Source of the DNA: Asterochloris sp. CNOR1
Taxonomy: Eukaryota; Chlorophyta; Trebouxiophyceae; Trebouxiales; Trebouxiaceae
Reading direction: 5' to 3'
DNA: 64,000 nt
NCBI GenBank assembly: GCA_963969365.1
Contig: OZ017757.1
Location: 1,860,001 to 1,924,000 of the forward strand
Shown: in pieces, positions 5,179 through 63,318 of the stretch
Layout of the letters: each line of letters starts with the position of its first letter
How positions within the stretch are numbered: position 1 is the first letter of the stretch
Notes under the pieces: generated by a model
What the model was told of the DNA's origin: nothing
The model's database searches: none
What the model saw: only the letters and a program-made list of their open reading frames with translations
Program-made: the position numbers and the translations under genes

Positions 5179-8100
5179 TCAGCCACGGCTGGCAGTGCGC
5201 TGCATCCTGGTGTACAGCAGCTCGAGATCCTGCGGCATCGTCACCCAGATGCGCCGAGCCCCCTCCAGCCACCCCCGCTCGCTGACTGTGCGGCTGAAGG
5301 GGCGCCGCCGGCGGGACCTCACTGCTTCGCACACAGCGTCCATGGCCGCCTGCAGAAACGGCTGGGCCTCCTGGCAGGCCAGGTCTCGGTGTCTACCATG
5401 CTGTGCAGGAGGGCTTGAATTCTTGCTGCAGGGTCTTTCTTCAGCAGGCCTCACTGTTACACCCACCGCATCCATGACCACCTGCAGGGATCGCAGGAGG
5501 CTGTCTGGCAGCTCCGGCAAGCCTGAACAGGGCAGGCCTGGGTGCAGAGCTACCACCGCCGAGACATCATTGCTGAGCATGCAATTCTCAGTGACAAGAA
5601 TGCATGAGGGCCTGGCTCCTAGAAGGACGAGCGATGGGCCAGGCCCCTCATCCATCAGGGCAGACCTGCATGCTGAGCCTGCACCTGAAATGCTTGGGCT
5701 GGGCGTGGGAGTCGCTGTCCCGTGCACAACCAGGTACACAACCCCTCCCACACAGGCCTTTTTCCAGAGCAGCAGAGCACTCAGCGGCATGCATGTGGCA
5801 CGTTACAAAAGTTTTCGGCCAAAGGCGACATGGTCACCTCGTATTCTGCGCCTTCATCGCTGGCTGCGGCCACGCTGCTGTTCATGGCAGCCTCTTCCAA
5901 TGGGCTGACAGGTGAGGGCAGGCCTGAGCCCGGCTGGATGCTGGCACCGGGCAGCGCCCTTTCGCCATGAGGCAGCCTTTCTGGCAGCACAAACAGCTCA
6001 GGGCTGTGACCTGCAGGCCACAAAGTCTATCAGGCAACAGGCTGCTGCTGCAGGAGGCGGGCACACAAAAGCTGGCCTTAGGTAGTTTGCGCTGGTAAGC
6101 AAGTAAGCTGCGCTGGGGATGCCTGAGGCTTGTCTGTATTGCCAAGGCAATGCCCAGAGGGGCACAGAGCAGTCGTGCTTTTGCTCTTGGTGCTGTTTAT
6201 GCCTCAATTCCAAGGTAAATCAGGCTTGCATAGCTTGCTAGGGCAATGCCGCTGCAATGCGCAGAGCAGTCGCAATGGGCTTGTCATGCTAAGGGTGCCA
6301 CGTATGCAGGATGGTTTGAGGTGGGTCCTTTCCTGGCGTGCCCATTGCAGTGTGGATGAAGAATGCCTGCAGAGCAGATGCCACAGGCTGGGTGGCCCAG
6401 GGCTGGCAGTCCTCCTCCGGCAGGCCACTGGCCACGAAGAGGACCTCAGCAATGTGTTCCTGCAGCAGGTGGCAGCACAGCCTGTAACCCTGAGGTCCAG
6501 TCAAGGGGTGACGCGCAAGGCATGATGAGCACAAACTCAACGAGTAGGCACTGAGGCCACAGTGACTTGATGCAGCAGCACAGGACCTGCCAGCAGCCTA
6601 CGGCCCTCAGAGTGCTGCCAGCATGCGTCGCTGTGCAGCTTGGCACAGCCTTCCTGACAGTGACACTGCCGTGGTCTTCCAGACAGGAGTATATACTGCA
6701 AGTCAACTATGCCTTGTTTGCCTGTACCACACACTGATAGCACACACCGCGGTCTCAATGCCAGGGGGCGGATCCTCTGCGGCCAAGGAGACGTCAGCAA
6801 TGCCCTTGCTCAGCATCTCGCAGGTCTGTATGAACACCCAAGAACGAATGCTGTCCAGGCCATCATCAACCACCACCACCTGCAGCTGGAGCAGGGCAAC
6901 CCTCAGGCACCGCTCAGCTGTGGCATTACACGGCAGCATGCAGTACCACAGCCACCCCAGCACTGGCATCACCTTCAAACTTGAGCTGCCAGGTTAGAGA
7001 GTGTAGCTGTGGAAATGCTGAGACACATCAGTTTGGATGCGCAGGGTTGCGAGTGGAGCTGACTGTGTCCAGCGTGGCTTGGACTTCAACAGGGAGCAGC
7101 ACTGCCCACACGCATGCTCAAAGTGACACACAGATGCAGCAAGGCCCTCTTGAGAGTACAGCTTGACATGTGAGCCAACCTGGAGGTGCTGGCGTTCCCA
7201 GGGCCTCACCAATTGTCACAATGCCAGCAGGAACGCCTTGAAAAGAGCAGGACACAGTCATGCCAGGCCACCTGGAGCTGCTGCTGAGAGCCTCTGAACA
7301 TAGCATACTGCCAGCAGGAACCCCAACATGGACCATGCCAGCCTGTATGGGGATGCTGCCAAAGGCCTCACCAGGTGGCACACCGCCAGCAGGAACACCC
7401 CAAACTGGAGCGCCATGAAGTCCCACAGCCCCGCAGCGCTGACAGAGACGCCGGCGGCGTTGCCCAGTGCTGCACGCGCACGGGAGAGCAGGGGCAACGG
7501 CACCGTCTCCTGGTGCAGCAGGGCTTGAAAAGCGGCGCCGTCCCACAGGGCTGGCACCTCAAGGGCTACTGTGCGATCCTCGCCCACCTGGCAGCCGGGA
7601 GCAAGCCTTGAGACATCAGACAGCAAGGACCTGAGCAGGGCTAGAGCGGCGCCGCCAACCCCTTTTGGCACCTCTAGGTCGTCGGGTGTCGTACAGTCCT
7701 TGCCCACTTGGCAGGAGCAGGCATGGCAGCGTCAGACCGCAGGGAGAGCCGCAGCAGCTCTCCCTGAAAACATTAATGGCCGAGGGAGCCTTTGCTCCTG
7801 AAGCGCAGCTTTACCACTGGCTTTGCAGCAGCTTGGTAGCCACCTAACCCAAAAGCAAAGCAGGGTGCAAGACCAGCAAAGAGCTGGTGCAGGAGTCTGA
7901 CGACTGAACAGAGGTTGCTATGTGCCTAGAACATGTCAGGCAGACTGTCTGCAGCAGCACGCATATTCCAGGTGAGGCGCACCCTGGCACAGATGCCGAG
8001 TTGGGGTGGGCCACTCCCATGCTCCTTCAGCGGCACTTGCCACCCTGGCTGCCCCGTCCTGTCCCGCAGCCCTGCAGGCTCACCCTGCTGGTCAGCAGGT

Positions 8101-11640: not shown

Positions 11641-14600
11641 TCACTGCTGGCTCAGGGAGTTTAGCAGGTCAGCCTGATGCTGCTGGATGAGGGGCTGGAT
11701 GAATGCATCCAGCCCCTCTCCAGCCATGATATTTTCAATGCCGTGCTGGCTGACATTCACGCGATGGTCTGTGACTCGACTCTGCAGGGAACAAATGAAA
11801 GTCACTGAATCCTGCTGGGCATGCCCTTGGCACTGTCTCAAAGCAGATGATTTGGGTTTTCAGCAGCAGGCAGTCACAGGCCTTTGGTTGGGCAGATGGT
11901 GCAGACAGCCCATAACAAGACTGCACGCCCACCTGAGGAAAGTTATATGTTCGAATACGCTCTGACCTGTCGCCGCTGCCCATTTGGCTTTTGCGCTGCG
12001 CAGACATCTGGGACACCTGTCGTTGCCTGCAAGTTGAGCATGTCATCAGGTACTTGGCATGCTTACGGCAGCTGTCACCTCCTGGCTCAGCCCCATGACA
12101 TCGACGGTGGGTGCCATCAATGATCAGAAAACAGAACCCATGGCGAGACCAGCATAGCCTGTCCTTCAAGTGCTTGTGTGGACACACAGAAGCTGCGCCC
12201 AAGTTATCTGCTATGCACAGCGTTGACATGATGCTGCTCAGCAAGAAGGTGCCAAATTCACCACCTCTCCTACTTGTAGGGGCGAGCGGCATCACTTTTA
12301 AGCGCCTTGGCTGTGCATATGCTGCTTTCCCCCAACAGGCTGTGCAACTCCACCTCCCCCTCCTGCTTGTACAGCACCTCTCCTTCTCATACAGCACTTG
12401 CATGGCAGAAAGCCCAGCACAGGCAGGCAGCACGGTTGCAAGCAAGTGCACGAAAGAGAAATGACAGATGCCTCACCTCTCCTGCTCATACAGGCGAGCG
12501 CACAACACTTTGAGCGCCTTGGCTTTATTTTTGTGCTGGCTGCGCTCGTCCTGAATGGCCACCACCAGGCCTGAGGGCAGATGCGTTATGCGCACAGCGC
12601 TGTTGGTGGTGTTGACGTGTTGCCCGCCAGCGCCTGAGGCCCGATAGGTGTCGATGCGCAGATCCTCATCCCGCACAGTCACATCGACCTGCCGCACAGC
12701 AGACAGGCTTGCCGGGCAGCCGCATGCACAGTGAGTTGAGTCATTCAAGAAGTGATGTTCAATGACAAGTCATTCCTGATCACACACAGAGTCACCTACA
12801 GACCTGAGGCGTGGAAAAATTCGGAGCCTAGGGTCACAATAGGCAGCCAAGAGCACACAGCCTAGTCTAGACCAGGCACACCGTGCACACTGGTGCAGTT
12901 TGGTCCATGGCAGTCGCACTCCCTCACTCACTTAGTCAAAGGCACATGCTGCAGCACCTCACCGCACAAGCGTATGCAGAGAGGCAGGTGCTGCACATGA
13001 CCCGCTGTGCTGGAGGCAGCACCGCCGCTACAGCAATGCTTGTGCCACAATCTGGCCCTCTGGAAACCACAGAGGACATCTGGACTGGCGTCATGATTAC
13101 ACACCGTGCCGGCCTGGGGCAGCACTGCCACAGAGGCGGCGCTGGTGTGCACGCGCCCGCTGGACTCGGTCACAGGCACGCGCTGCACGCGGTGGACCCC
13201 GCTCTCGAACTTGAGATGGGCATAGACGTTGCTGCCGCTGATGGCCGCGCTGGCCTGCTTGCAGCCGCCGCTCTCAGCCTCTGACAGCTCCAACACCTGC
13301 AGGCGCAGCCGCAAGGCAGTGGCTGAGATCTGCCGTGGCCTGCAACTGAAAGCAGCTTGCTGCTTGAGGCCGGAGAGCGCAAGTCATAGTGCACAGGATG
13401 GACGAGGAGTGGTTGATGCATGACGGCAGGCCTGGGGCGGCCGGGCCCGCTCGCTTCAGGTCTGCCTGAGCAGCAATGCAGCAAGACAGCAGCGTTGAGG
13501 ACCTGGGCTCTTCCAGTGATGCAGAGCTGTCAGCATGCTCACCTCAAAACGCCAACCCTGCACGCCCGCCAGGCGCTCGTACATTCGCAGGAGGTCCATG
13601 GCAAAGAGGGCTGCCTCCTCGCCCCCCGTACCGGCACGGACCTGCAGGGCCAGTGCAGTTGGCATTGCATCATGGAAGAGGCAGCAACTCAAAGCCATGT
13701 CAGGTACTGGGAGTTGAGATGGACGGTTCTGCAGGCGCCCAAACGCACGAGAGGGACCAGGTGCATTGCGCGCCAAGAATACTATCATGCACGCGAATCC
13801 TGAAGTCAACCCTGCAGCATGCACCCTGCTCATGGAGCTTGGCTCTTGTGTTGCTGCTTACGGCACCCTGACTCTGTGAAGCAACTTGGGTTGAGTCCTG
13901 TTGCCAACACCACCATCACAAGGCCGCATCAAGTGCTGTTTAGCCATCTTCCATCAAGATCATAGAGTGCAGTGCGATACACAGCGCTTGCTCTATGCAT
14001 GTCCATTGTGGCATCCTTATGCTTGTCTGCTGAGAGAGCCTTATCAGTTGTGGTCATACTGCAGCCTTGATATGGTGCTGCGTCTCTGAACACAGCACAA
14101 AACCAGACAGTGGCAGCAGAAAGGCCCAGGCTCGACCTTGAACACCCCTGGTGGGGCTGGGTCATTGTGCTGGGCCCGTCTCAGCCTCCCAGATGTTGCC
14201 GGCCCACTGCCAGACAGAGCACACAATCGACGCAAGGTGTAAGACAGAGCATGACCCACCTCCAACACCACACCTCGCTCGTCTGCCTCGTCTTTGGGCA
14301 GCAGCGCCAGCAGCAGCTCCTGCTCAAGGGCAGGCACCTGCAGGCACTTCAGCTGCTCAGATTTCAGGGGGGCAGGGGCTGCTGCTGGCGTTGCTGCTCA
14401 CGGGCAGGCAACTGCAGGTACATCGATCATTTAGTTCTTTGGGCAGCATGGCTGGCTGCCTGGCTGCCTGGCTGCCGTGCCCAGGGCAGCAGTGCTGGCA
14501 GCTGCTGCTCAGAGGTGAGTGCCTTTGCAGGCGCATTGATCATGTCACTGCAGTGCTGCAGTGGGATGATCAAGGTGCTCTGCCTGCCAAGGCACCATCA

Positions 14601-16841: not shown

Positions 16842-18584
16842 TCAGAGGAGGCCGATCATGAGACGTCCTGCCGTCCAGAGAGCAGTCAAGGCTGCCCTGA
16901 CAAGCCATGGGTTTTCGTACACACTGAATGCTCCATATGAAAAGGCAGCACCTCGGTACAGGAAACGGCCCCACTCCCACAGCTTCCTGACACGCCCTTT
17001 CTTGAGCTCCTGCAGCATCAGCTTGTCAAGGTGCTGCCTCAGGGAGCAGCTGCGATCTGTGAATGCAGACACACACTGCGAGCAAAGGCCCCGGCAACCC
17101 CGCAGCAGACGTGCAGCTTGCTTTGATGGGGTCACGCATGCTGCCTGTAGCTTTCATGCACCAGAGGCCGAGGGACTGCAAACAGAAGGGCTGCCAGCTC
17201 ACTTTGAAAGAGTTTACGAGTGCCTTCTGCAGCTCTTGGGGCTCCATCTTCTGGGCATCTGGCAGCGTAGCAAGGTAGGCAGCCACAAAGCAGCCCATGG
17301 CTTCCAGAGCATCCTGTTGGCTGATCAGGACATAGCTGTCAAAAGCCTCCTCTTCCTGCAGGACCAGTGGGCTAATCAGCACAAAGCTGTGAAGGCCTGC
17401 TTTCTCTGCAATTTAGAGCCCAGCTGGCTTGGTGGCAGTCCATGGCACCTCTAACTGCAGGTAGGCAGCTACAAGAAACCACATGGCCTCCAGAGTGTCG
17501 TGCTGACTGATCAAGACATTGTGTATGCTTCGTCTTCCTGCAGGTCACAGCCACACCTGGCTTGGTCAGCGGCATGCAGCAGGCAGGAATTCCGTGAAAG
17601 CCTGCTCCCTCTGGCCAACCACCCATGCAAGCCTGCTCCCTGTGGCACACAAGCTGGCCTGCTCAGGCAAACCTGGGCCAATGGAGGAATAGCTATCAAT
17701 GCCTCCATCTCCTTTGCCCCGCAGCGTGCTTATGATGCTATAGCCAGATGGGCCGATGTAGGAGAGCAACACTGGTGCTAAAGCTACCTCTCCTGCAATA
17801 GGCAGGCAGCTCTACAGATGACTCAAGGCACCAGATGCCCAGCGGTGAGCAGGCTGCTGTGCAGCTCTGTGCATCAGACCATGGCAGCATGAGAGATTAT
17901 GCGACATCAAGGGCATGTTGCGCATGCCGACGGGAGGCCTGGCCAGCTCCCTTGAAAACACATGTGGGATAGAGGTGCAGTGCTGAGCCATGAGCCCTGC
18001 CCAGCATACACAATGTCCCAGGTGCTGGGCAGCGAGCCATGTTGTCATTTGCAGGCCAATCTGCAAAGGGGGCAGGCAGCCTGCAGTCTTGACAAAATGG
18101 GCAGCAGCGCTCACCTGCTCAGTGCTGTCTGTTATCTGGTCCACAGTCCACCACCCAGGGTCAGCCACCTGGGGCTCTGGATGCAGATGCGGCTCGGCGG
18201 GCTGCACAGTGAGCTCCTGCTGCCCACACTGCGCCGCTGCCTGAGCACGCGCATTGGTGACGCGTTTCAAGAAATCTGGTCGCTCAAAATAACGCTCCAT
18301 CCACCCATAGAGTTGCAGCGTGCCTGAGCTGCTGCTGAAGGCCGGCTGGAGCCAAGACTGGCGGCCAGGAGAGCTGCCTGCCAGCTCCAGGTCAGCCCTG
18401 CACGTGGAGTAAGGATAAAAGGGATGGACTGCCTCATGACTTTGAGAAGACTGCCACATGCAGGATCTTACCTGTTTTCCTCCAGGAGCTCTTGGAGATG
18501 GTCTGTCTCCAAATCACTGTGGCCTGTTACGGGGCCAGCTGCTAAGTGGGAGGTTGGGCCTGCATCAAGAGTGGGCTCAGCCAT
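16842..18584 (-). CDS. Conserved protein of unknown function
   Basis: Four exons in phase: 18584-18472, 18397-18115, 17355-17203 and 17009-16842, giving 238 residues. The N-terminus (MAEPTLDAGPTSHLAAG) is acidic and flexible. The middle has LQLYGWMERYFERPDFLKRV and WWTVDQITDSTEQ. The C-terminal 100 residues look like a compact helical domain: SQQDALEAMGCFVAAYLAT, EPQELQKALVNSF, RKLWEWGRFLYR, then YENPWLVRAALTALWTAGRL, whose last part is hydrophobic enough to sit on or in a membrane. I recall no named family; the motif-like C-terminus suggests conservation in the green lineage, which is inference. The exon 4 acceptor could lie 18 nt upstream in the same phase. The intron between exons 2 and 3 holds two decayed copies of exon 3. 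Confidence 0.72.
17458..17762 (-). repeat. Two exon echoes of exon 3 of the conserved unknown gene
   Basis: Copy 1 (17458-17546) aligns end to end with the 5' part of exon 3 and its acceptor (17270-17358). Plus-strand matches include GGTAGGCAGC, CATGGCTTCCAGAG versus CATGGCCTCCAGAG, CTGATCA and CTTCCTGCAG. Copy 2 (17688-17762) is more decayed and covers the acceptor-proximal part. Both carry stops or shifted frames. Confidence 0.85.
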
Positions 18585-32700: not shown

Positions 32701-34170
32701 TTGCTGCAGATGGGCTACCTGGCGGGGCTTTGCGCATCATAGCAGGCCCTGCACAAAATTGTGTGCAACTTGTTCATAAAGACAAACTTCCTTGCTGCTG
32801 CTAGCACTTAGGCATCCACCCAATCAGTCCTGGCTGCTGCTGCCAACAAGTCATTAAGCTTCCGGGTGCCGGCTGCCGCAGACAGCTGCTGGCAGCTGCT
32901 GTCGCAGCCAGCTGCTGATAGCCCCTTCACCACTTAACTCTGGCCGCTGCTGATAGCTGTTGACATCTGGGGTTCACCCAGCAATGATCAGGCGTCACTG
33001 TAGTAGTGCCTTGGGGCCCATCTCTTGCTGCCTGCCTGCAGGGGCCTGTGTCAGCACCTATGCCTGCCCACCGCCAGCCGCAGACAAACGCGACTCTGCA
33101 CCACTCAGCACAGCTGCCGCGGGGTGTGCCGTGGCCCCCCAAGCCCCACGCCCCATCCGGCACTGGATATGGAGGCCCTGCCAATGGCAGGCTGGCCTCG
33201 CCATCAGGTGTGTGCTTGCGTGACCTGAACACATCAAGTATCTTGAAGGTGCATGCAGTGGCTTGGCTGGGGAGGAGTCAGGCAGCCAGCCCGCTTCAGG
33301 GTTGAGGCTTTGCTCGATGTGCTCTCAAAAGCCTGCACCAGCCAGTCGTAGCTTGTGTGCCACCAATCATGAGGGCATGCTCGCAGGCTTTTCAGGCTGC
33401 TGTGAGAGAGGTGACATTTGTGGCACTGCTGGGCAGCACAAATGGGCAAGCATGTCTGTGAAGCCCCTTGATAAGTGCGAGAACCTCAAATGTTTCAGGG
33501 CAGCTCATGCCTTCCTAGCACAACTTCTTTCCAGGAAGAGTCTGGGAAAGTTTCAGGGCTGCACATGACCTCCCTGCCCCTGCCAGTGCCATAGGTATGC
33601 CATGGAGCTGGACAGCTGATGCCCATGGAGGCTATGGGCATTGACATCAGCTGTGTGAAAGAGGAAACACAGGCACAAGCTACAAGTTGTGACGGGACAA
33701 GCTACAGCATTGCAGTGCTCACCAGGCTGTGGGGGGCCCAACTCAGTCTCTGGTGTATGCGCCACAGGCATCAGCAATAACCGTACAGGATTGACCATCC
33801 TGTGATGGTGACATGTCATTGCTCAGGTGCAGGCGCCACAGGAGTGAGCTGCAGCCCTGCAGCGTGAGCCAGGCTGTGCTGTGCCCAACTCAACTCTACT
33901 GCATGCACAGTGACACAGGAGCCCCTTCTTAATTTGCAGGTGCCACAGACACAATTGCAGTGTCAGCCAGGCTGTGATGTGGGCATCCCACCTCTGATAT
34001 GCATGCTCAGTGGCATGAACCTGTCGCCTCTGGCGTGCAGGCGCCACAGGCATGAGCTACGGCATTGCAGACGAGCAGCGGGTGGCCGAGTTCCGCAACG
34101 GCAGCTGGCATGCGCCTCCCAGGAGTTTGAACTTGGTGCAGCCACTTAGCGCTCAGCAGCCAGGGTTGCC

Positions 34171-34208
<38 letters not shown>

Positions 34209-46651: not shown

Positions 46652-47293
46652 CTCGGCTCCAGACTCAAGAATTTGAATTGGACTGACGCATGCCTGCGCC
46701 ACCCCCCTCGTAATAGCATGAGACTTTCCAGTAACATTTGCATCAGCAGTGATCCCGCGCTTTCTATGCAACAGTGCACACAACACGCCAACTGTTTCCC
46801 ATCGTGGCAGCTGATTTTTTCAGCCAACCATTTCACAAGCCAGCCAGATTTTTGCCTGTCACTCACACAACATGGTGAGCAAAATTTGCCGGTTCAAACC
46901 CTTTCCAAAAACCTTGCAACTGTCGATGTCCTGCGCAATTTACCATCACACTCTTGCCAGTAGTGCTTACCTGATCCGCAAGAAGTCAGTGCCATCGAGC
47001 CTTTCCCTGTCAGGTGAGGCTGATTCTGGAGCGCGAGCTGTCGGGTCTGCAGTCTTCAAGTGGCACACGCTGTCTTTGAAGATCAATGTCCTGTTGGACC
47101 CGTGTGAGCGCCCTATTACATGCGTTCCCACGCAGTCGCCCTGCACCAACCACCTGTGTGTAGGTTGAGTGTTGTCCAGGAGCAGTGCTGCAGTGGCGCG
47201 TCTGCATATACTTGGTGCCACTTGGCTGACAGCTGCAATCCTGTTTTGCACCATGCAGGTCTTGCTAGCAGACTGTAAGCAGCAGGCAGCCAT
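46648..47293 (-). CDS. Doubtful small protein, possibly organelle-targeted
   Basis: Exons 47293-46971 and 46693-46648 join in phase 2 (GTAAGC donor, GCGCAG acceptor) to give 122 residues. The first 45 residues lack acidic residues apart from one Asp and look like a mitochondrial presequence (MVQNRIAAVSQVAPSICRR). The rest (RWLVQGDCVGTHVIGRSHG, TLIFKDSVCHLK) matches no family I know. Its stop would overlap the stop of the GT69 gene by a few bases. The good donor and agreeing phase argue for it; the lack of any known family and the overlap argue against. Confidence 0.35.
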
Positions 47294-47461
47294 CTGTTGA
47301 CCGCCCAGCCACCTCCCAGTAGGCCAGCCAGGGCCACACCCGCGACCTGAAGCAGCAGGGGCCTCAGGGCTCAAGTGGTTACGTCCTAAGCCTTAGTCAT
47401 AAAAGCCTTGGCAGGGGCCAGGCAGCTCCCCGCCAGGGACCCCGCAGGCGCTGCAGGGTGC

Positions 47462-50400
47462 ATGGTCCAGCAGGTTCCCACTGCTGGCCTAGTGCTCATC
47501 TTCGCCAGCTTGTTTGCGTGCATCTACGTGGCAGGACGCCTCTGGGTCACCACACGCGAGCTACACTATCTGGTGAGCTCTCATGCCTCTTTTGCTCGAC
47601 ATCGAGCCAGCTGGCAGGTCCACCTGGCCCTTCGCCGCATGCAAGTGTCAGAACTGCAGCAGTGCATTGTGCAGGTCTCCTGCTGCAGCAGCAACAGCTT
47701 TGTGTGCAGAGCTGATGGTCCAGATCCCCCTTAGCAGCATGAGGTAGCTGTCCTGACTGGGCCTCCTGCTGCATGCTCTGCAGCAATATGAGCTGCACCA
47801 AGTCAGCAGCACACGGAAACTAGGGCTTGGAAGGAGCACCTCTGCAGCGTTCCCCTTCCTGAATGGAGCGCTGGACGGGGTAGACCAACCCCCAGAGTGA
47901 GCTGCTGCTTCATGCATCTTGCATGCAGCTGGAATTGTTTACAGCACTGCTCAGAGCGCTGGACACTGTTGCCCGTTTTGCAATTTGTTGATGGCTGGGG
48001 AACCCACAAATGCATCAGCCCAGCGTGTTGAGTCCTTGCAATTAGCTTGGCAGCCAGCACCGGCTCATGTTGCTGCACACAGCCCCAGCGCCCTTCCCCA
48101 GCAGTGACAGCCGCTTGCTGAGGCTACCAGCTGTCACCATGCTCCCTGCAGGGTGGCAGACCTGTACTACAGCATTTGCTGGCTGCCAGTCTCATGCAGC
48201 TGCTCACAGAACCCCTGCTGAGGCTGCCTGCTGCCACTCCGCAGGGGCCAGGCAGACGTGCTGTACTACAGCATTCGCTCGCGGCCGTCTGGAGCGCCGG
48301 CACCCCCACTCACGGGGCAGTCTTTGGAGGTGGAGTTGCCAGACCAGCCCTATGATGACAGGCTGCTGGGACAGATCGACTCTGTGGAGTCGGGAGAGGT
48401 GCAGGGCTGGGCCTGCCTGCGAGGCGCTCTGACCGACCCTCTGAAGGTCAGTATCTGGGCAGCACACGCCAGCAAGGCAGGACAGGCAGCTGGCTGGCAT
48501 GGACAGGCTTGTGGAGCTTTCTTTGGGCCTCACAAAACCTGTCCCTCTAGCCTGCTGCATGCTGGACAGCACATGCGTGTTTGTACTTGCCTGCCGCCAC
48601 ACAACAGTCCAATCATCCACAAGTCTGCCCTAGGCAGTGCACTGGCATGCTGTACCCTTGTGCATGGTGCACTCTATCGACAAACCTGCTAAGTCAGCAT
48701 GTGACACGAACGGCTGCCTTCCATAGGTGCTGGTGTATGTGGATGGCAAGAAGGTTGGCGAGGCTCCTGCGGTGGGCGCCACACCACACCACATCATCCA
48801 CCGCCTCTGTGAGATTGACCTCACTCTGGGCGAACGAGCGCAGCAGCCACCCCAGCCGCAGCAGATGGGCGTGGGCTTTCACCTGAAGCTGCCCATGCTC
48901 AATGCGGGCAAGCATGAGGCAAGCAGCTGATGTGCATGCGGGAGAGCTGTGCGGCCTGGCCCCTGCTGTACTGCCTGCCACCTGCAGCGCTGCCTGTGCC
49001 CTGCTGTGCCGGCCTGCCACCTGCAACGCTGCCTGCCTCCTGATGCGTTGTCTGCCACACCAAGCCCCATCACATGTATGCATGCATAGTTAGAGCTGCG
49101 CATTATGCAGAATCAACATAGTCCAGCTATTGGTGAAATGCACCTGCAGAGCCTGCAGTGGCAGCTGCAGCAGCAGCTGTCCCACGCAGCACTATGTGCC
49201 CTGAGGAGTCCACAGTACATAGACAGGCACCGCCTGCCTGCTGCAGGTGCGGGCCTTTGTGCAGAATGCAAAGGGTGATGGCAAGCAGGAGGTCAACCAG
49301 AGCCCCCTGACTTTTATGGAGTCCACAATGGAGCCAGCCCTTGGCGAAGCCCTGAAGAGGAAGGATGCCATCATCCGTGTCCGCAATGCCCAGATCTCTG
49401 CCCTCTGGGACGAGCTGCACACACGGCAGCCCTGGCGCAATGCCATTTCTGGGGATGGCCTGGTCAGCTTCAGCGAGGCGCCCTCCAACAGCACGCGCAA
49501 GCTGGCTGTGCTGGGCATCAACACGGTGAGCTGCTGGTGTCCACAAGGTTGTTCAAGAGGTTGGCAAACCGTCATTCAACAGGTTGCTGATGGGAGGGAC
49601 ACCCAGCCGCATGGTCCTGCTCACTAACAGCAGGTGCGAGCTGGCTGTGCTGGACATCAAAGCAGTCTGGGATGCTCTGGGGTCCAGTGGAATGTTGCTC
49701 ATGCTGCGCTTGCTCAGCGGCTTTTCATTTGCAAGGTGGCAGTGCTGAACATCAGCACAGTAAACTGCTTGAGTGCCAGACAGGCGGCCGTGTGCAGGCG
49801 CTGTTGAGAGCACCTTGCTGCCCTTCAGTTGCTGCATCACCACACTGCATCAACAAAGCGGTAGGGCCATGATAGGATGGCACAGCTCTGTGCAGTACCT
49901 CCTGATATCAGCTGTGAAAGCGCATCATTGCAACCCGCAAAGGGTACTCACTTGGCCTGGGGCTCTCACTGGTACCTGCGCCTGCCTACTTGGGCTGGCG
50001 TGTGATGGAGCATGTCCTGAAAGTGCTGTCCTGCTACAGGGCATGGGAGCCAGGGAGCGCCGTGACAACCTGCGACGCACATGGGTGCCCACGGGGAAGG
50101 AGCTGCAGCGCTTGGAGGAGGAGCGGGGGATAGTCATCAGATTCGTCATCGGCTACAGGTGGGGCTGCACGCTGCTGTGCTGCAGCCAGGGCGAGTTGAG
50201 CCCTGCAGGCATTGGCGAAAGGTGCCTTACTGCAGCCAGCAGGCAGTTGTGAGCCAGCTGGGCGGGGTCTGCACCTTCTGATGCAGGCATCAGCTAACAG
50301 TGCTTTTGCAGGCCTGAGGCCGGCCAGGTGTGCAGCCAAACGTCTCCAGTGCCCAAGCAGGAGGCACTGGGGGCAAGATGCAGTGCACCCTGAGCAGTCT

Positions 50401-52396
50401 CCTGTGTGCCCTGTACGGAAGAGAGTTGCAGGGCTGACGGTGTTCCACATTGCCGCTGCAGCGAGCAGAAGGATGATCCTGATGAGGAGAAGCTGGCCCG
50501 CGAGATGAAAGAGTTTGGCGATATCGTGCGCATAGACATGGTGGACACCTACGCAGACTTGTCCATGAAGACCATGCGCATGTTCTCTGCACTTCCCCAG
50601 AAGGTGAGAGGCGTGGCCTCCAGCTTTGGGTGCCAGGGCTTGGGGGAACAACATCTGGGGTGGCCTGCAGATCTTGCTCACAGTCATGCCTTTGACGGTG
50701 TCAGGGGTTGGCTATGAACCTAATCTCAGCACTGTCCCAGGATTTGCGATGTGGGATTTGCTGTGCTCGAGTATGGGCAGCTTGGCTGCTGCTGCGTTGG
50801 CTATGCATTTTCAGCCCCTGAGGATGCGCACAGTATCAGCGCTGCCCAGCACAGACGGTGGGAGAAGGGGAGGGGTTGGGTTAAGCTCTGCGCCGCCTTG
50901 CGAGCAGCAAGCCTTGGTAAGCTGTCTGCTCTTCTGCTTCTGTTGGACCAGGGGTTGTTGATGAGGCAGACACTGTGGCGGGTGCAGCTCATCGACTCGG
51001 CTCCTGCTGTTGGGGTCCCCATGTGGGGCTGCTGCAGCGCCTAGAGTTGCTGGTGCTAATGGCATGGGCATCATCTGGGTTGTGCCGGCACCAAGCACAC
51101 AGGCAAGGTCAGCCAAGTCCCCTCATGGCTGACAGGCAGCCCACTTGCCTGCAGGTAGACGCTGACTTCTACTTCAAGATCGATGATGATGTGGCTGTCA
51201 ATGTGGATGCATTGGCCGACTACTTGGACGAGCGCCGCACACAGGGCAACCTTTACCTGGTGAGAGACCAAATGGCAGGTTGTGGCTGCTCAGGCTGCTC
51301 AACGCAGGCTGGTGGTAGCCTGCACTGGCAGGTTTGGTCATGCAATTCATGTGGGCCAGTGTTGGATGCTGTGCTCAGGAGCTGGCAAGCTTGCTCTTGT
51401 CGTCCTTTTCTCCAAGCTCTGCTCTGCTGCTGCACGTCATGCTGTTTGTAGAAGCACTGCGGTGCCTGACATCTGGTGCTGGCTGCCTGCAGGGCTGCAT
51501 GAAGTCCGGTCAGGTGCTCACCGACCGGCGCTACAAGTGGTTTGAGCCCGAGAACTGGCGATTTGGTGATGGTGCTGGAGCAGAGGGCCAGATCAACTAC
51601 ATGCGCCACGCATCGGGGCAGATTTATGGTGTGTCAGGGCCGGTAGCCAAGTACATTGGACGCAACGCCCCCATCCTGCACAAGTGAGTAGTCCTGGGGG
51701 TTGCTGTGGAGCTCATCTGCAGGGCATCTTGCACAAGTGAGCGGCGCTGGGGCCAGACCTGGGCCCAGCTGCAGTGTAAAAAAGAGAGCCTGAGGTGCTA
51801 GTCTTTCTGGGTGTCATGCTTGGCTCAGGTCTTGTGGGCTGCAGTGCTGCATGACTGATATGCTGGGCTCGGCCGATCAGCCATGCTGAAGCAAGCTGCC
51901 TTGCTTGCACAACCCTGCCGTATCGGGCTAGTTCCTCAGCAGCGTGCAGAACGACAAAGCAGCTGCTCTGGGGAGACCCTTCTAGAACCTTAAGGCACTG
52001 ATCGTGCCTTCTGTGTGCCACAGGTTTGCCAATGAGGATGTCACTCTTGGGGCCTGGCTCATGGGGCTGGAGATCACCCATGTGGATGAGCGCCGCCTGT
52101 GCTGCGATAGCGCAGAGAAGTGCAGCGCCCAGGTGCACAGCCCTGCACAATAGCGAATTTTCTGCCTGTAATCTGTTGTCTGCATGGATCCCGTTATGCA
52201 GGGCTGCTTACAGTTGAGCACCAGTGACCTGAATGTGTGCCTGCTGCAGACGGAAGGGAATCTGTGCTTGGCATACTACGAGCACCAGTGCGCAGGTATC
52301 TGCAGTTCTGAACAACGCCTCGAACCCATTTATGATTCCTGCCTGAAGGATCCCCTCAACAAGGGCCAAAATCAGCGCACACCAGCCAAACAATAG
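47462..52396 (+). CDS. GT31 beta-1,3-galactosyltransferase-like protein (type II Golgi protein)
   Basis: Golgi enzyme expected to add galactose from UDP-galactose to glycoproteins. Eleven exons in phase (47462-47572, 47784-47896, 48245-48446, 48727-48918, 49247-49525, 50040-50158, 50462-50603, 51155-51259, 51493-51683, 52024-52132, 52250-52396) give 569 residues. Residues about 6-24 (TAGLVLIFASLFACIYVAG) are a signal anchor. A beta-rich stem (GWACLRGA, VLVYVDGKKVG, LNAGKHEVRAF) precedes the catalytic domain: ARERRDNLRRTW, IVIRFVIGY, DTYADLSMKTMRMF, metal-binding DDD in DFYFKIDDDVAVN, YGVSGPVAKYI and the EDV motif in FANEDVTLGAWL. Exon 4 ends in a GC donor (GAG/GCAAGC). The TTG upstream of the first ATG is in frame, but the ATG at 47462 is the first Met. 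Family call is secure; acceptor is unknown. Confidence 0.95.
48133..48192 (+). repeat. Exon echo of GT31 exon 3 start with acceptor
   Basis: Copy of the exon 3 acceptor and first 50 bp (48229-48292). Shared: GCAGGG, GGCAGAC, CTGTACTACAGCATT, CGCTCG versus GCTGGC, and the end word GTCT. Confidence 0.85.
49632..49772 (+). repeat. Two exon echoes of GT31 exon 5 end
   Basis: Copies at 49632-49672 and 49732-49772 of the exon 5 end (49496-49530). Shared: GCTGGCTGTGCTGGNCATCAA in the first; AGTGCTGAACATCAGCACAGTA in the second, which keeps a GT donor position. Confidence 0.8.
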
Positions 52397-52708: not shown

Positions 52709-55619
52709 TTACACTCCACTTGCAGTCTTCATCTTGAGCTGGCGCTCCAACCCAAACATGCGCATGAAGAAGTTGGTAGTGGCAGCATTGATACTGCGCA
52801 GGAACCTGCAACATGATAGCATTCAGATGTCAATGCTGGGCCTTGCTTGCAGAACACTGCAGTCGCTGCATGCATGGCATGCATCACATGATCCCTGTCC
52901 GACAGGGGCTTGCCCCCAAAGCAACCCGCACAGAGAGGTGTTGCGTCAGCACAACAGCCAACACTTGGGCCCGCAAGTGTGCATTCTCTTCAGCTGCAGT
53001 GCAATGAGTCACAGCATGTGCCACTCACGCTGCCTGCTGGGGCAGGCACTGCAACAGACCCTCTGCATTGCGCAGGAGAATGTAGAACACGCCCCTTCCC
53101 AGGACAAATGTGGGCTTGTCCTCCCAGGAATCGCAGTGTGCCCAGACCAATCCACAGGTTCGGTTTGTCCGTGGTTGCCATGCACTGAGAAACCAGATAC
53201 TGACATCCTTGCAGCAGGGCCTGCTGTAATGCTGTACTGCAGCAGGGGCACATCAAGCAGGGCTGCCAGTCTGAGTCCTGTATATTCACTCTCCCAGGTG
53301 TGTCTATTGAGCGCAATGCACCCAGAAGAACCCTCTACTGACAGCACAGTTTCAATTGAACATTCAGTGCTCAGGCGGCACCCATCAAGCAGGTGCCCAC
53401 CTGGGTGGTGTCGGCTTGCCCTCCCAGGTGTCACTGTGGCGGGCAATGAGCCCAGACGACTCCTCGATGGTCAGCACAGTGTTGGTCTGCAGGTCCACAC
53501 GCTCGGGCAGCATGTGCTTGCTGAACCACCCCTCTCGTGCAAATGTGTAGGCCTGCTTATTGGGCACCAGCACCTGCCAGGAAGGGGACGAGCAGAGCTC
53601 AAGGACAGCAGGGCTTCGTGCTTACAATGTGCAACCACACTTGCCGATGCAGAGCTAGGTGGCTCGGGCAGCGCGGGTACGATGCCTGCCCAAACAAAGG
53701 GAAGCCGCTTGTCACAGGTAGAAGCAGCAGATCTGGGCAGGCGATAAAGAGATCTGGGCAGGCTGCGTGCACTAGCTGGCCAGGCGAAGAGCAGCGGCTG
53801 CGCTGCTCTGGCGAGGCTGTGCCCACCAGCTACCCCATCAAAGCAACATGAAACAGTAGCTGTGGACCGCATAACAGCTGCAGCTGGGCGACTTGGGCCA
53901 AGCTGCAAAGCCCACACTCACCTCCATGAGACCATCCTTCTGTGCCTTGAGAGTGGGGGTCTGCTTGTCAATCTCCACCTTCTGCAGCAAGCAGGACTCA
54001 ACCTCAAGTATGAAGTGCCTGCAAGGGTGCTTTGGTACCTGTACTGCATGTTCAGGCAGCAGCCACACTAGAGTCATGGGCAGCATGCACAAGGATGCAC
54101 AGCCAAGCCTGCAGAGAGGCTGAAGGCAGTTTTGGCCAGGCAGCAGGCAAAAACGCACATCGAATTGCAGCTGGCACAGTAGATCCCAGATGAGGCCTGC
54201 CCTCAGCTGATGGCACTGTGCACAGCAGGCCTCTGCAGCAGAACCATCCAGGCTGCTGACAATGCTGCCAGTTGACTCTGGCTGCTGAGCTGCTGACCTA
54301 GCCCAGTAGCTTACCGAGAAGATCTTCTGCAGGCTGTAGAACTGCAACGTCATGTCCTTGCGGCCATAGCAATTGGCCTACATACAGGGTATTGTTCTCT
54401 CAGACAATTGCAGTGCAAAGGCAAGGCTGGCTGGGAAAGCATGCCATGATTGGCAAGGCTAGAGTAGCCTTGCGTCCATCATGTGCACCACATATGGAGC
54501 TGGCATGTGCAAGGGGGACATACTGCACGCTGGCAGTGCAGAGTGCCAGCTTTCACTCTGGCTAGCACCACCAAGCATGGCGAGAGCGAAAGTGCTTGCC
54601 AGCATATACTCTACACACAACAGAGGTCCAGAGCTGAATGAACTCACCAGGGGGTCCACAAAGCTGCAGCAAATAAAAGGATGCTTGGTCAGTTCACAAT
54701 GGAATCCAGTTGGCGCAGCAGGCAGGCAGTACAAAACAAATGCAGTATAGCAGTAACAGTGTTACTGGCTCACTTGCACTTCTCTGTATAATGCTGGCTG
54801 ATGATGTCCGTGATCTCCTGCTCAGTCCTGTGCAGAAGTACAAAAACTGCTCTCAGCTTCTAGCAGCAGAGTTGCAGCACTCTGCCCCAGCTGAGGCAAC
54901 GAAATGCTCGCCCTCTCAGTCAGGGGCGAAGGACAAGTGCAGTGTGTGAAAGCCTGCCAAGGACTGTGACATGATGAAGTAAGATGACTTGCAGGTTGAA
55001 GATCTTGCAGGGACGGCTGGCAGAGTGCTGCTCAAAGGACCTGCCAGATCTAGCCACTGCTCAGGCTCTCGCTCGCCATGAAGAGCTCACCTGGCTGTGT
55101 AGGCACTCAGGGCGATGTCCACAAGTTTAAGTACGTTTGGGGACAGAGCCTGGCCAGATGGTGGGCTGGCACCCACGCCTGCAGGAGAGCTGGGGTCAAC
55201 AACAGATTGGCAGGCACAGACTGTCAGACAACGATCATGTCAGGGGTGATGTGGCGCAACGTAGGACATCCTCTGCTGCTGAGCTAAGCGTGGGATGATG
55301 TGTTTGATCAGCTGCGCATCATTCCCGCAGCCTGCTCAGGTGTCTTCATGCACAGCCTCCGCACAGCCTTGCCTGCATTGGCTCCCTTTGTTTGTGCAGG
55401 CTGATTCTGGGCCAGTGCATCGTCAGCAGTGCTAGACTTGGCGGCCTGGGTAGCCATTGTTGCCGAGCTTCCCGCTGGCAGAAGGTCCGAAGGGCAGGTT
55501 TTGACTTGACTGGCTAGCACAACGTATCGGGATGCGCTCAGGAGCAGGTAGGTGGAAGCTAATGCTCGAACTTGCATGTGCTGGTTGAGTGGAAAAGCTG
55601 CTTTTCGGGACAGCTGCAT
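52709..55619 (-). CDS. NTF2/SnoaL-like fold protein, probably organelle-targeted
   Basis: Seven exons are well fixed by phase: 55178-55091, 54827-54774, 54663-54648, 54377-54315, 53981-53922, 53573-53401 and 52805-52709. The 5' exon probably starts at the Met at 55619 (or the inner Met at 55457), with a presequence-like start (MQLSRKAAFPLNQHMQVRA), but its donor was not found. The product fits an NTF2-like cone fold of the DUF2358/SnoaL sort: helix ITDIISQHYTEKC, strand NFVDPL (compare FxDPL), helix GRKDMTLQFYSLQKIFS, strands KVEIDKQTPT and VLVPNKQAYTFA, then LTIEESSGLIARHSDTWEG, a typical last strand ending at HxDxW, and a basic amphipathic tail. Function is unknown. Exon 54663-54648 is only 16 nt. 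Confidence 0.75.
53110..53360 (-). repeat. Two exon echoes of the NTF2-like gene's exon 53573-53401
   Basis: Copies at 53293-53360 and 53110-53165 of the exon end (53408-53486). Plus-strand shared words: CTCCCAGGTGT, GAGC or GTGC followed by AATG, CCCAGA and CAGCACAGT; farther copy CTTGTCCTCCCAGG and TGCCCAGACNA. Confidence 0.8.
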
Positions 55620-58662: not shown

Positions 58663-61600
58663 CTAGCGCGCATTTGAGCGGCTGGAGTCATCATCCAGGG
58701 CTTGCAGCTCATGGTAGAGCTGCTGCAGCCGCTTTCTGCGCTCCACTGTCCTGTGGACAATGCGGGCGCTGCCAGAGGGGATGCGCACAGGCCTGTCTGG
58801 CGTGGTGGCCCGTGCCTCGGCCCGCTGGGCCGTGTGCAGTCGGGGGCCCCCTGCAGCTCCCCTAGAAGAGTTTGCTTGGGCTAGGTGCTAAGCAAGCTGC
58901 TTGTCGGCGAGGGCCAGCTGTCCAGCAGCCCCAAGCGGGCAGCATTGGCGACATCACAAGCGGGCGCCCTGGGGTCGACAGGAGCACTGGTGGCACTTCA
59001 GTCTCCCAAGCAAGCATGGCTGCTTGGGGAATTGGCGTGTGCAGCAGCTTTGAAGCGCATTGGAACAGGGTCTGGGTGCATGGCACCACCCATGCAGGGT
59101 GAGAAAGGCAGCCTGGCTTTGAGCAGCCTCTCAGTCAGGTCCTTGCAGGCACACAGGGCATGTCGCTCACCCAGGCTGCTGCTGGTGGGGCTCTTGCGCA
59201 AGGAGCGCCGGCTGTCTCGCGACAGGCCCGTGGCTGTGCGCGTCAGGCTGCGCCCAGGGGCAGCGCCAGGCTGCGCCTCCCTTGTGCTGCGACTGCTCTG
59301 CTGCTGGTGCAGCATGCGCTGCACGGCGGCCAGGCCTGAGGGGTCGGCGGACCTGCCGCCAGCAAGCAGCTTCGGGTCTGCTGCCCCTTCCTGCAGGGCA
59401 GGCGGAGGGACCCCTGGCGTCCAGGACAGCCAGGCAAGCTAGATGCAAAGCTTGACATCCGCCCTGCATGAGTTTTGAGGCAGTGCCAGTGACGCTGCTC
59501 CATGTGCTCGAAGGGAATGACATGTTTTTGGGCAACTGACTGCTGCTCAGTGTGCTCAGAGGCATCACCACGCCGCCATGCTGTTGGGTTTATGAATGCG
59601 GAGGTGCTGACATGCAAGGAGACAGGCGGCAACTCTCCACATGGTCGGAGGCCCTGACACACTGCCAGGGAGGCGGCTGCTGTGCCGGCTGGCTCCAGCA
59701 GACCCACCTGAAGGTCCTGCCTGGCAGCTGCAAAGCCGCTGTGGATGCCCCGCATGGTGTCCTGCACGGCTGCAAGCTGATGGCGGAGCTGTGCCTCAAT
59801 GTGCTCAGCTGAAGCAGCAGGCTGGACAGCTCTGCCACCTAAGTCCTGGGGATGCCTGCAGCAATGTTGCTGAGGCTGCCCTGCTTGTTGATGGTCAAGC
59901 TGCCAACTTTGCTTTGGGGCAATGGTCTGTGCCTCACAATAGCCAGTGCTTGGCATGAGGACCACACACACCTAGCGAGGGGAAGCAGTGGAAAAGCCGC
60001 ATGACTAGCTACCACAGCATCCAGTTCTCCCGTGACAAAGTGCTGCTGAAGAGGAGTGCTGTCTGCCATGGGGAACTGCGCAGCACGCTGCTCACACCTG
60101 CTGCTGGCTGGATCCTGCTCTGCGGATGCAGGCGCATGCGGCTCTGCAGGTTGTGTGGCCTGCTGCCTGCCGGTGCCCGCCTGGTGCTGCACACTGCTTA
60201 AAGGGCCAGTCTGGCCTGTGCTGGCAGAAAGCAGCTCCTGCCTCAGAATGTCCAGCTGCGGCAGCCGGCACTGCAGCCTGAGGGTGGTGCACATGTGCTT
60301 TGCAGTGGCTGCTGACCTGTACAGTCCAGGGCATGGCAGGCCAAAAGGCTGCAGAGCTGGGTCCAGGCAGCGACCTCAGATCATAATACCCAGTAGCAGC
60401 AACAAGCAGTGCAGCCAGCTAGCTGCAATTGAGCAAGCCAGCAGATAGCCTGGCCCAGCCAGAACGCAGGAGCGAAGGTCGCACCTTGTCCTCTGCACGG
60501 GACAGGGAGTCCAGCCCGTTGTTGACCTCTTGGTCAACTTGCCGCTGCATGCTCTCCAGCGCCCGTAGAGCCTGCAGTCAGCCATGTGCCAGGCCTGATG
60601 GAGAGAATGGAAGCCATGAAGCTCCAGCAGATGCCGCCTGGCCCCCTTGATGAGCATCTCGTGTGCTGAGCGCTGCCCATGTCATGCCCAACCAACGTCA
60701 TGCCCGGCACCACGCTGGCCAGCAGCATGTCAGGCGCTTCAAATGGCAGGCAGTAGTCCGGGCCGCAGACGGGTTGGCAGAGCAGCACAACCTGGGGGCG
60801 CACCTTTGCCCTGTCTGCGTCCATTGGGTGTGCCTCAGTGCTCCGCCTGGCTGCATCAAGGCTGGCTGCAAAGGCAGCACGCTCAGCAGACAGGTTGCTC
60901 AGCTCCTGGTGGTAGGCCCTCTGCAGGCTGTCCATAGCCTACACAACAAGGGCAGGAAGGTCTCTGTTGATGATGCAACTTGGGCAGACGTAAGGCACAG
61001 GCCTGCTCACGCAGCCAGAACTGGGGCCTTCCCAACCCAGCCAACAATAATCCCCCCTGCAGATGTCCCTTCCAGACACAGCTGTCCCTGAGTGTGGTGC
61101 ATGCAAGCCAAAGCCCTGTCGGTGCTGTGAGACACACTGGGTGAAAGGCCCTCTGCTGTCCATAGCCTATGCATTCGGGAGACACTGCACACATGGCAGA
61201 AGTGCAGTGCGCTGTCGCGTCGTCCTGCGGCAGACAGGGAAAGGGGAGGGAGGGAGGGAGGGGGGAGGGTGGGGAGGGGGGAGGGGGGAGGGGGGGGAGG
61301 GAGGGCAGGGAAAACAGCAGCACAGCAGCTGAGATCTGTGCTGCGCAGCCTTCCAGCAAGCACCATGAGCGTCTGCGCTTTGTGCCGCTGGAGCCCCACC
61401 TCGCCAGCACATACTGTAGGGCATCCTTCAATTTACGCATGCTGCAGAGCGCTTGCGCACTGGATGCACCGGAACCAAACATCATCCAGGGGCCACCAGC
61501 CCACCTTGAGCGTCCGTGCACTGCGCCGCTGGTCCGCTCGCGAGACACGCCCCGCCAGCACAGACTGCAGCGCGTCCTCCACGCCCTGCAGCCGGGCGTG

Positions 61601-63318
61601 CACCTGGGGCAGGGCCGCCTCGGGGCCCAGCCCCTGCTCTGCCAGGCAGTGCTGCACAGCCCTGTCCATCTTGGCCATCACACGCTTCTCCAGGCTGTCA
61701 AGCCGCTCCTGCAGGGGCACATTGAGAGATCAGCCTGGGTGCTTGCCACAGATGCCTGCGCCCCGCCTGCAGGCTGCCAGGCGCTACTACAGGAGCACAT
61801 GTAGTGATCAAACTGCATGTTTGTCGCTGTCAAGGCCTTGAGCGTGAGCAGAGTGTCTGCCTTCCTCTGCAAGCTGCCTGTGAGCTTGCATACAGCAGAG
61901 GAGTACAGTGTTGCTGACAGTGTCTGTGTGCAGAGCCCATCAGCGGGTGCAATGGTGCAGCACTACCAAACCTGTTTGGCAAGGATTGCTGCAATGGCTT
62001 GTTCGCGCATTTTGCATTGATGCAGGGGCACATGCATGTCGGTCGCCCGTGTGCCTGCCCCTTCACCAAGTCAGGTGGCGCAGCAGTGCCCAAACGTCCC
62101 TGCCTGCTCAGCTGCAAAGCAAGCAGGCGAGGCTCGTCGCTACATTTTTCTCCTGACCAGCCACCTACTTCTGCCTCACCGAGATTGGCACATGCTCTGC
62201 TGGCTAGCCCATATGCCCAGCGCTTCATGTTGTCTGTTGGTGCAGCAGTGCCAGATGACCCTGCTCCACACGGCGGTTACCCATGCCGCTGCACAGCAAG
62301 GGTGGCCTACCTTTATGAGTTTCTCTTGGTCGGCTGCCCACTTCATCCGCGCAGCCTCACTGGGAGGGGCTGCAGACTCTAGCGCACCGACTCGCCTGGC
62401 GATTTCAGTAAAGGCCTTCTTGCTAAAGCTGCTGTTCTCCTCGCTGAAGGACTGGCTGCACTTGATGAGCCGCCCAGCATTCATGACCTGAGTGGGCAGG
62501 CCCGAAGCAGTGAGCCTAGGAAGTGCGCATCAGTGCTCAGGCATAACCAAAGCACTTTGCATGTCTCTCATGCGGTGCTGGGATGGCTGCACTTGATGAG
62601 CTGCCCAGCATTGAGCACCTGAGAGGGCAGGCACATGGCAGCGAGTTGATGTGGAAGGTTTTGTGTGCAGTGCAAGAGCTCAGTGTCAGCCTCCCTCAGC
62701 CTGGGTAGTCTGCATGAGAGCTGGGGCACAGTAAACAGAGCTTTGCAGGGTGAGGACTGCCTGCACTTGAAAAGCTGCTTCATGTAGAGCCCCTGAGCAG
62801 GTAGGCATGATCAATCTCATGTTGTATTTGCACCGCAGAAGGCCATAGATTTGGCCACGGCTGTGGCTTTGCATGGAGGATTACCAAGCACAGCAATTGA
62901 TCATGTCACCCCGTCTGCAACAAGCATAGTGCATGTCTCTAATTACGCTGTGAAAAATCCACTTGCCTTCTCCTCCAGCGCCCTTGCTGCCGCTGCATTG
63001 GCCTGTATGCGATCGTCAAAGGACTGCACTGTGAGGCAGGCATTGGTGAGCCTCTCCAGCTGAGACTCCAGGTAGCTGATGTATGAGGACCGGTCAGTGA
63101 GCAATTTGTCTGGCTGGATGTTTTCTGCATCCTACAGGGATGAGCCGACCACTGAAAGGTGGCACAAAGTACTTCTGGTGCCCTTGAAAAGAGCTGAAGC
63201 GGCCATGAATAATGTGCTGAGTGTGGCTTACCCTTGAGTTAAGATAGCTGGCGTCACGAGAGTGCTGCTGTGCCTTAGCATGCCGGACACAGTACGAGTT
63301 GCCTCTGTGGGCCAGCAT
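58663..63318 (-). CDS. Coiled-coil protein of unknown function
   Basis: Ten exons in phase: 63318-63232, 63131-62967, 62487-62311, 61708-61505, 60938-60804, 60571-60485, 60270-60098, 59831-59708, 59390-59171 and 58850-58663, giving 519 residues. Most exons encode heptad-like helices: SYISYLESQLERLTNACL, FTEIARRVGALES, ERLDSLEKRVMAKMDRAV, LQRAYHQELSNLSAERAA, LRALESMQRQVDQEVNN, HIEAQLRHQLAAVQDTM. The last third turns basic and Ser-rich (SLTRTATGLSRDSRRSLRKS), then ends with a short coil RRKRLQQLYHELQALDDD. This looks like a cytoskeletal or scaffolding protein; no named family is recognised. The exon 2 donor is GC (AAG/GCAAGT), needed to keep phase with exon 3. The start at 63318 rests on phase and donor quality. 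It diverges from YOS1 by 214 bp. Confidence 0.8.
61146..61176 (-). repeat. Exon echo of coiled-coil gene exon 5 start
   Basis: Copy of the exon 5 acceptor edge (60915-60945). Plus-strand shared words: GGCCCTCTGC and TGTCCATAGCCTA. Confidence 0.82.
61236..61314 (+). repeat. Long G-rich purine tract in an intron
   Basis: About 79 bp, almost entirely G and A, with more than ten G-runs of three or more, in an intron of the minus-strand coiled-coil gene. The transcript would carry a C/T-rich tract; the plus DNA strand could form G-quadruplexes. Confidence 0.92.
62578..62805 (-). repeat. Two exon echoes of coiled-coil gene exon 3 start
   Basis: Copies at 62578-62636 and 62756-62805 of the exon 3 acceptor edge (62449-62505). 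Plus-strand real CTGCACTTGATGAGCCGCCC; copy 1 CTGCACTTGATGAGCTGCCC, still followed by an acceptor; copy 2 CTGCACTTGAAAAGCTGC. Decay increases with distance. Confidence 0.9.

Follow-up and report, generated by a model that had tools for sequence, protein, structure and literature searches.

Short duplications that carry exon sequence or stay close to their source have been described in several systems. In the potato RdRp gene, a tandem duplication across an intron-exon border duplicates the splice signals (PMC4974935). A review of intron gain treats tandem genomic duplication, known as the AGGT model, as a route of intron birth (PMC3443670). Repair-mediated proximal duplication in primates, of decreasing intensity, copies short segments, exons and splice sites among them, to sites near their source (Pace et al. 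2009; PMC2671141). In the primate set, copies within 50 bp of the template were removed and the separations peaked near 1,200 bp, possibly a method artefact according to the authors; its 824 donors included two full exons, four partial exon/intron segments and two intron/exon/intron segments. Neighbouring sequences of fly regulatory modules share a similarity that fades with distance over a range of about 50 bp and is ascribed to local duplication (PMC3188502), and one study of introners names green algae among the lineages in which it mainly detected them (PMC9860276). Here we describe a stretch of 64,000 bases (the window; G+C about 58%) from the green alga Asterochloris sp. CNOR1 (contig OZ017757.1, positions 1,860,001 to 1,924,000), in which many introns carry aged and degraded copies of the adjoining exon's edge.

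The window resembles the potato case in that the duplications span exon-intron borders together with their splice signals. The potato duplication, however, is a single recent case that produced a new spliced intron, whereas the window holds many old cases in which the spare copy was apparently absorbed into an existing intron. As in primates, the copies are short and lie near their source, but separations stay below 450 bp and the detectable set is dominated by exon edges. With the fly modules the window shares local similarity that fades with distance, although those modules are regulatory DNA, act over about 50 bp and lack exon-intron borders. Among the literature titles and abstract openings surveyed, no account of ladders of decayed exon-edge copies in algal introns was found. 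The mutation is ordinary in kind; notable are the number of copies and their legibility against the exons.

Genes were modelled with a small self-written ab initio gene finder trained on the window itself, which predicted 13 genes with 121 exons and 108 introns. The splice consensus was sharp and uniform over the predicted introns (donor CAG/GTGAGC, acceptor CTGCAG/G, the slash marking the junction). Ten predicted exons shorter than 20 bp were reclassed as intron before counting, after which 98 merged introns of at least 60 bp were available. The first or last 80 bases of each exon were then compared with the adjoining intron, the control being 100 samples of matching length drawn from other genes' introns. 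A z of at least 4 was reached by 23 of 196 edges, located in 22 of the 98 introns, as against 1 of 196 when the own intron was reversed. Ends of upstream exons (13) and starts of downstream exons (10) contributed about equally to the positive edges. Gapped alignment yielded 38 exon-to-intron copy pairs in 22 introns and nine of the 13 predicted genes. These are not 38 independent events, as they come from fewer edges and some overlap; the splice junction lies inside 32 of the 38 alignments (18 donors, 14 acceptors). An earlier note on this DNA had proposed same-orientation copies of exon edges in the adjoining intron, often including the splice site, each derived from its own exon and with nothing common to different genes. 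These proposals agree with the alignments and with the negative foreign-intron control that the note had called for. Its count of at least ten genes is reached only when one predicted model (42544-52311) is taken as two genes. At the end that it gave for the pattern, 62805, a repeat set (62442-62807) does exist, but it lies mostly outside any predicted gene.

Local same-strand repetition was equally evident in comparisons that ignored gene models. In a blastn self-comparison (score of at least 40), 27 direct and four inverted repeats lay less than 500 bp apart, three of the four inverted ones being palindromes. Below 200 bp there were 21 direct and four inverted repeats, from 200 to 500 bp six and none, and from 500 bp to 8 kb none and one. 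Beyond 8 kb, a CAG run at 34.17 kb accounted for all three direct matches, and a single short inverted match remained. The same picture came from a scan of every diagonal without gaps, in which the scoring was set for 75% identity and the diagonals 5-60 kb away served as background. At 24 bits, each bin between 40 and 300 bp held at least about 20 times as many direct segments as the far diagonals predict (e.g. 12 segments against 0.1 expected at 80-100 bp), and background level was reached by about 450 bp, while inverted segments were near zero. Direct repeats are hence limited to short distance and have no inverted counterpart, as expected of tandem duplication. At 22 bits, the bin of 1500-2000 bp was above the far rate on both strands (14 direct and 13 inverted against 5.9); since direct and inverted segments are equally affected, this reflects a general effect of proximity rather than local copying. 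The top-scoring inverted repeats of the window are imperfect palindromes of 43-77 bp (14519-14595, 22978-23043 and 11682-11724).

Introners also change the intron content of genomes, but they form families common to different introns, and a family of this kind was considered and rejected. At a score of at least 40, the introns of different genes had no sequence in common within the 64 kb, and a sparse family may exist elsewhere. The only long-range direct matches were the three CAG-run matches, next to two inverted ones beyond 500 bp, in accordance with the note's view that the copies are not introner elements.

Chaining ungapped segments to a total of at least 24 bits produced 72 clusters, of which 41 paired an exon or exon edge with an intron (28 edges), 21 paired intron with intron, three exon with exon, and seven were of other types. 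They cover about one tenth of both sequence classes (3,898 of 39,170 intron bases and 1,712 of 16,144 exon bases).

The copies decay as non-coding DNA and are not coding exons in use, since their alignments contain 87 frameshifting gaps against seven in-frame ones, both counts being inflated by alignment costs that make gaps cheap. This bears out the proposal of redundant, decaying copies. Over 1,806 aligned exon positions, mismatches at codon positions 1, 2 and 3 numbered 112/594, 122/605 and 147/607 (18.9, 20.2 and 24.2%); the excess at third positions is slight (p=0.024) and as expected from the exon's own silent changes. In the gene that we call ClpX-like, the exon at 35649 codes for the P-loop stretch GSGKTLLAK, and its far copy (35287-35395) has frame-breaking gaps. 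The GT or AG dinucleotide was retained at 24 of 32 aligned junctions, about 20 being predicted from 79% identity. Splice-site scores of the copies (medians 2.65 for donors and 5.5 for acceptors) were below those of real sites (6.6 and 8.25) and above those of random intronic GT and AG (-0.34 and -2.22). Fourteen of the 32 copy sites came to within 2 nats of their real counterpart, and three surpassed it; the donor in the copy at 25386-25452 scores higher than the real donor of its exon. Copy sites that score close to their counterpart or higher include the boundaries after bases 25430, 36494, 45995, 48151 and 51736.

Retained dinucleotides and splice-like scores of this kind would also be expected if the copies were alternative or mutually exclusive exons under selection. 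The frame is not kept, however, and the changes are not concentrated at third positions, so that alternative coding exons were rejected on these gene models and selection of this type is highly improbable as an explanation.

The duplication process looks old rather than continuing, because just one repeat of at least 40 bp exceeds 85% identity. This is the intronic pair at 22858/22921, with 88.7% over 53 columns by blastn; none of the ungapped clusters does so, and a small number of short exon stretches (34-44 bases) reach 91-97% identity to their copies once gaps are left out of account. The earlier suggestion of a continuing process is therefore not upheld: young copies are nearly lacking and constant-rate models misfit, although short-read assembly may have collapsed young copies. 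Nor was the nearest copy often the least changed, as had been supposed. When an exon edge was compared with both its near and its far copy, in 11 such triplets, fewer private changes were counted in the near copy three times, more seven times and an equal number once; by pairwise identity the near copy was more alike to the exon in five. The exon was the short branch in these 11 triplets, with 55 private changes against 128 and 112. Growth of introns, also proposed in the note, found no significant counterpart in intron length: among introns of at least 300 bp, the median was 503 bp for edges with a copy within 250 bp and 450 bp for edges without (p=0.19).

Random duplication was simulated on the same gene layout, with neutral decay of introns, constrained exons and the same detector. 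The simulations are coarse, with hand-chosen rates, no formal fit and five replicates per setting (six for the spacer test and two for the array test described below). The observed ratio of exon-intron to intron-intron clusters was 1.95. Continuing duplication at a constant rate gave ratios of 0.2-0.6 and median scores about 1.5-2 times those observed, and it was rejected in favour of old-only models, which fit better. The latter, with copies aged 0.15 to 0.8 substitutions per site, gave ratios of 0.8-4.2 for tandem duplication across ten settings and 0.8-4.1 for short templated insertion, no exon preference being built into the tandem settings. The apparent preference for exon edges can accordingly be, in these models, an effect of survival, because constraint on one member of a pair keeps the likeness visible for longer. 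Several old-only settings gave too few clusters (23-56 against 72). Those that came close to the observed number expanded the simulated sequence from 64 kb to some 80-116 kb; unless deletion balances this growth, old duplications would thus make up a large share of the intron DNA.

Evidence for the mode of duplication comes from the arrays. Tandem Repeats Finder, run with relaxed settings at a period of at least 30, detected 12 arrays, of which five cross an exon-intron junction (listed in the table), five are wholly intronic and two are exonic. Three Markov controls contained 1, 3 and 4 arrays, two tandem simulations 3 and 4, and two simulations of templated insertion 1 and 0. The 12 arrays are direct evidence for tandem duplication. 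Two repeats with periods that are multiples of three, 75 (24744-24908) and 84 (27847-28019), lie inside or at the start of predicted exons and may have been tolerated by the coding sequence.

The reading that we favour, with a probability of roughly 0.6, is that small local same-strand duplications, mainly tandem and random with respect to gene structure, together with differential survival explain the copies. Tandem units of roughly 50-250 bp would duplicate at random relative to genes; those within exons would mostly be purged by selection, and those within introns or over the exon-intron border would persist. The border duplications would survive because splicing kept one junction in use while the spare copy turned into intron. 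All copies would then decay neutrally. Likeness should fade at about twice the rate in pairs of intron sequences as in pairs with a constrained exon member, and the recognisable remainder would therefore consist mostly of exon-edge copies. At loci with only a short aligned piece, the tandem step would have to be supposed, as would neutrality and the fixation history. Several observations weigh against this reading. The intron between copies bears only a weak resemblance to the sequence on the far side of the second copy (mean z 0.85-0.94, 14-15% at z of at least 2; in the test on the 34 of 38 pairs with a gap of at least 25 bp, 5/34 and mean z 0.94), whereas simulations with full tandem units predict a mean z of 1.8-3.7 with 35-58% at that level. 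Edges with at least two copies (12 of 28) exceed every simulation (means 2.6-6). Introns that carry copies are not significantly longer, as noted above. The timing must be old-only, and no relative shows the single-copy state, searches with two eukaryote-type proteins in viral and genome contigs having found none. If unequal exchange recurred after a first tandem copy had arisen, it would explain the clumping on the same edges. The roughly equal spacing of ladder rungs is in line with this but not significant (p=0.058 in 13 hand-drawn ladders) and is suggestive only. From the slope of span on displacement (0.26, standard error 0.17; 0.46-0.67 in both models) nothing was drawn, the test being confounded by spans that often exceed the displacement (mean 177 for displacements below 105).

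The spacers are better matched by short templated insertion, in which break repair copies a nearby piece of 30-90 bp into the intron at 50-300 bp and leaves an unrelated spacer; simulations of it gave a spacer mean z of 0.7-1.7. Three short copies (12375, 36343 and 49487; 20, 23 and 35 bp), with 89-95% identity and 99-139 bp from their source, fit the same picture, as their spacers are without clear similarity (z -0.5, 1.4 and 1.0), and duplications of this sort are those reported in primates (PMC2671141). Against such insertion, five contiguous arrays cross a junction here, and its simulations gave one and none of any kind. It also leaves too few multi-copy edges when random (means 3.6-6 against 12), and under old-only settings it covers less of the displacement (0.16-0.23) than the median of 0.27 in the observed pairs outside arrays, most of which cover part of it. 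We consider it the less likely main process, though both processes may have contributed. An unrelated spacer fits part of the loci, and old tandem copies with decayed spacers look similar. The note's proposal of local tandem duplication across boundaries hence stands at the five contiguous arrays, and elsewhere templated insertion fits equally well or better. The same clumping would also follow if exon edges with splice sites were preferred as sources, or if copies were retained as decoy splice sites. The splice-like copy sites agree with this, but the exon-intron excess arises in simulation without any preference and the retention of dinucleotides is near its neutral prediction, which makes a directed process decidedly improbable. 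A lineage-specific turnover of introns, distinct from background duplication, in which the adjoining intron receives copy after copy of exon edges as preferred sources, with their splice sites, to form decaying ladders and decoy splice sites, is kept open as a rather doubtful idea because no simulation matches the clumping.

The AGGT model involves, like the favoured process of random duplication and survival, local tandem duplication with exon sequence and splice-like sites, and the junction tetramer does read AGGT at 53 donors and 19 acceptors among the 98 introns. That introns arose recently by this route is nonetheless very unlikely, since the defining likeness between the two ends of an intron is absent: over 98 introns, the donor neighbourhood resembled the acceptor neighbourhood of its own intron no better than that of another (mean 20.7 against 20.5), with scores of at least 30 in six introns against 3.5 expected, and in 20 of 23 cases the copy sat in the half of the intron closest to its own edge. 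The note's link to this model as a mode of intron birth thus fails. That composition or assembly produced the pattern is scarcely credible; CAG runs do match one another at long range, but the far-diagonal, inverted and foreign-intron controls share the composition and were all negative, and decayed, indel-rich copies are not expected from misassembly.

Exon-edge copies and local repeats in the window. Displacement (d, in bp) is given in brackets.
Span	Strand	Gene	Source	Copies	Remarks
134-306	+		exon end 134-199	238-306	donor GT retained
5293-5511	-		exon start 5293-5377	5425-5511	acceptor AG retained
7167-7409	-		exon end 7327-7403	7259-7326 (75); 7167-7237 (162)	ladder; contiguous junction-crossing array 7259-7409, period 75
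12222-12537	-	release factor	exon end 12435-12537	12375-12394 (99); 12222-12326 (212)	
14291-14464	-	release factor	exon start 14296-14350	14370-14424	contiguous junction-crossing array over the whole span, period 74, 2.4 units
17254-17550	-		exon start 17254-17367	17353-17401 (51); 17434-17550 (186)	highest edge-test score, z 16.7; contiguous junction-crossing array 17301-17410
22053-22243	+		exon start 22170-22243	22053-22117	
22858-22972	+		intron repeat	22858-22909; 22921-22972 (63)	youngest-looking; predicted 7-bp exon inside taken as false
25173-25477	+		exon end 25173-25284	25311-25361 (84); 25386-25452 (169); 25433-25477 (260)	ladder
25840-26107	+		exon end 25840-25925	26018-26107	
27847-28019	+		start of predicted exon 27858-28178		contiguous junction-crossing array, period 84, 2.1 units
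31137-31428	+	ClpX-like	exon end 31137-31229	31263-31343 (114); 31360-31428 (223)	
33723-34099	+	ClpX-like	exon start 33996-34099	33789-33889 (208); 33723-33793 (282)	more intron-intron repeats in between
34545-34829	+	ClpX-like	exon start 34712-34829	34612-34702 (104); 34545-34626 (203)	
35287-35717	+	ClpX-like	exon start 35612-35717	35509-35596 (104); 35287-35395 (323)	
36342-36634	+	ClpX-like	exon end 36342-36415	36459-36500 (116); 36556-36634 (214)	
36693-37222	+	ClpX-like	exon start 37101-37222	36693-36810 (408)	weak copy
37691-37849	+	ClpX-like	exon end 37691-37731	37813-37849	
38232-38433	+		intron only		tandem array, period 88, 2.3 units
38402-38510	+	ClpX-like	exon start 38473-38510	38402-38441	
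44273-44578	+		exon 44273-44344	44503-44578	alignment without junction
45357-45576	+		exon end 45357-45419	45514-45576	
45979-46316	+		exon start 46232-46316	45979-46062	predicted 9-bp exon in copy (45996-46004) taken as false
48107-48290	+		exon start 48206-48290	48107-48192 (99)	
49480-49784	+		exon end 49480-49548	49619-49686 (139); 49731-49784 (234)	
51672-51752	+		exon end 51672-51699	51725-51752 (53)	
53109-53480	-		exon end 53373-53480	53244-53350 (130); 53109-53153 (300)	contiguous junction-crossing array 53243-53480
61353-61601	-		exon end 61496-61601	61353-61411; 61373-61456	overlapping; perhaps a single copy in two pieces
62442-62807	-		repeat set	62442-62514; 62573-62645; 62753-62807	edge of last gene model, gene assignment uncertain; excluded from the 38 pairs

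Ten of the 13 predicted proteins were scanned against Pfam and eight of them had matches; 29 of the 38 copy pairs fall in models supported in this way. The supported models include an oxysterol-binding protein, a dual-specificity phosphatase, TMEM208, HCNGP, a peptide chain release factor with both domains present, and a protein combining FHA, RING and ARM-type matches. The model 30242-39286 matches AAA_2 and ClpB_D2-small (ClpX-like is our own name, not that of Pfam); it encodes a long low-complexity region ahead of the P-loop, and a pure CAG run at 34172-34207 is read as polyglutamine. The model 42544-52311 unites the unrelated domains of a CAP59-type mannosyltransferase and a galactosyltransferase in one prediction and probably represents two adjacent genes merged by the gene finder. 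Upstream of the last gene model, a coding-like open stretch (62967-63095, minus strand) suggests a gene start further out, in which case the repeat set at 62.4-62.8 kb would be intronic. A predicted intron also contains a 26-bp minisatellite of about four units (27049-27156).

Copies of exon edges are a likely trap for gene finders, as the 9-bp exon predicted here inside one copy illustrates. They are likely to mislead RNA aligners as well, which are reported to misalign between repeats flanking introns (PMC10632439). Introns that contain splice-like copies of the exon edges beside them offer a direct setting in which to study how the spliceosome selects the right junction. The lengthening and turnover of introns are hard to read because intron sequence decays; in our case, old local duplications can be counted and given rough dates from a single genome by comparison with the exons, which hardly change.

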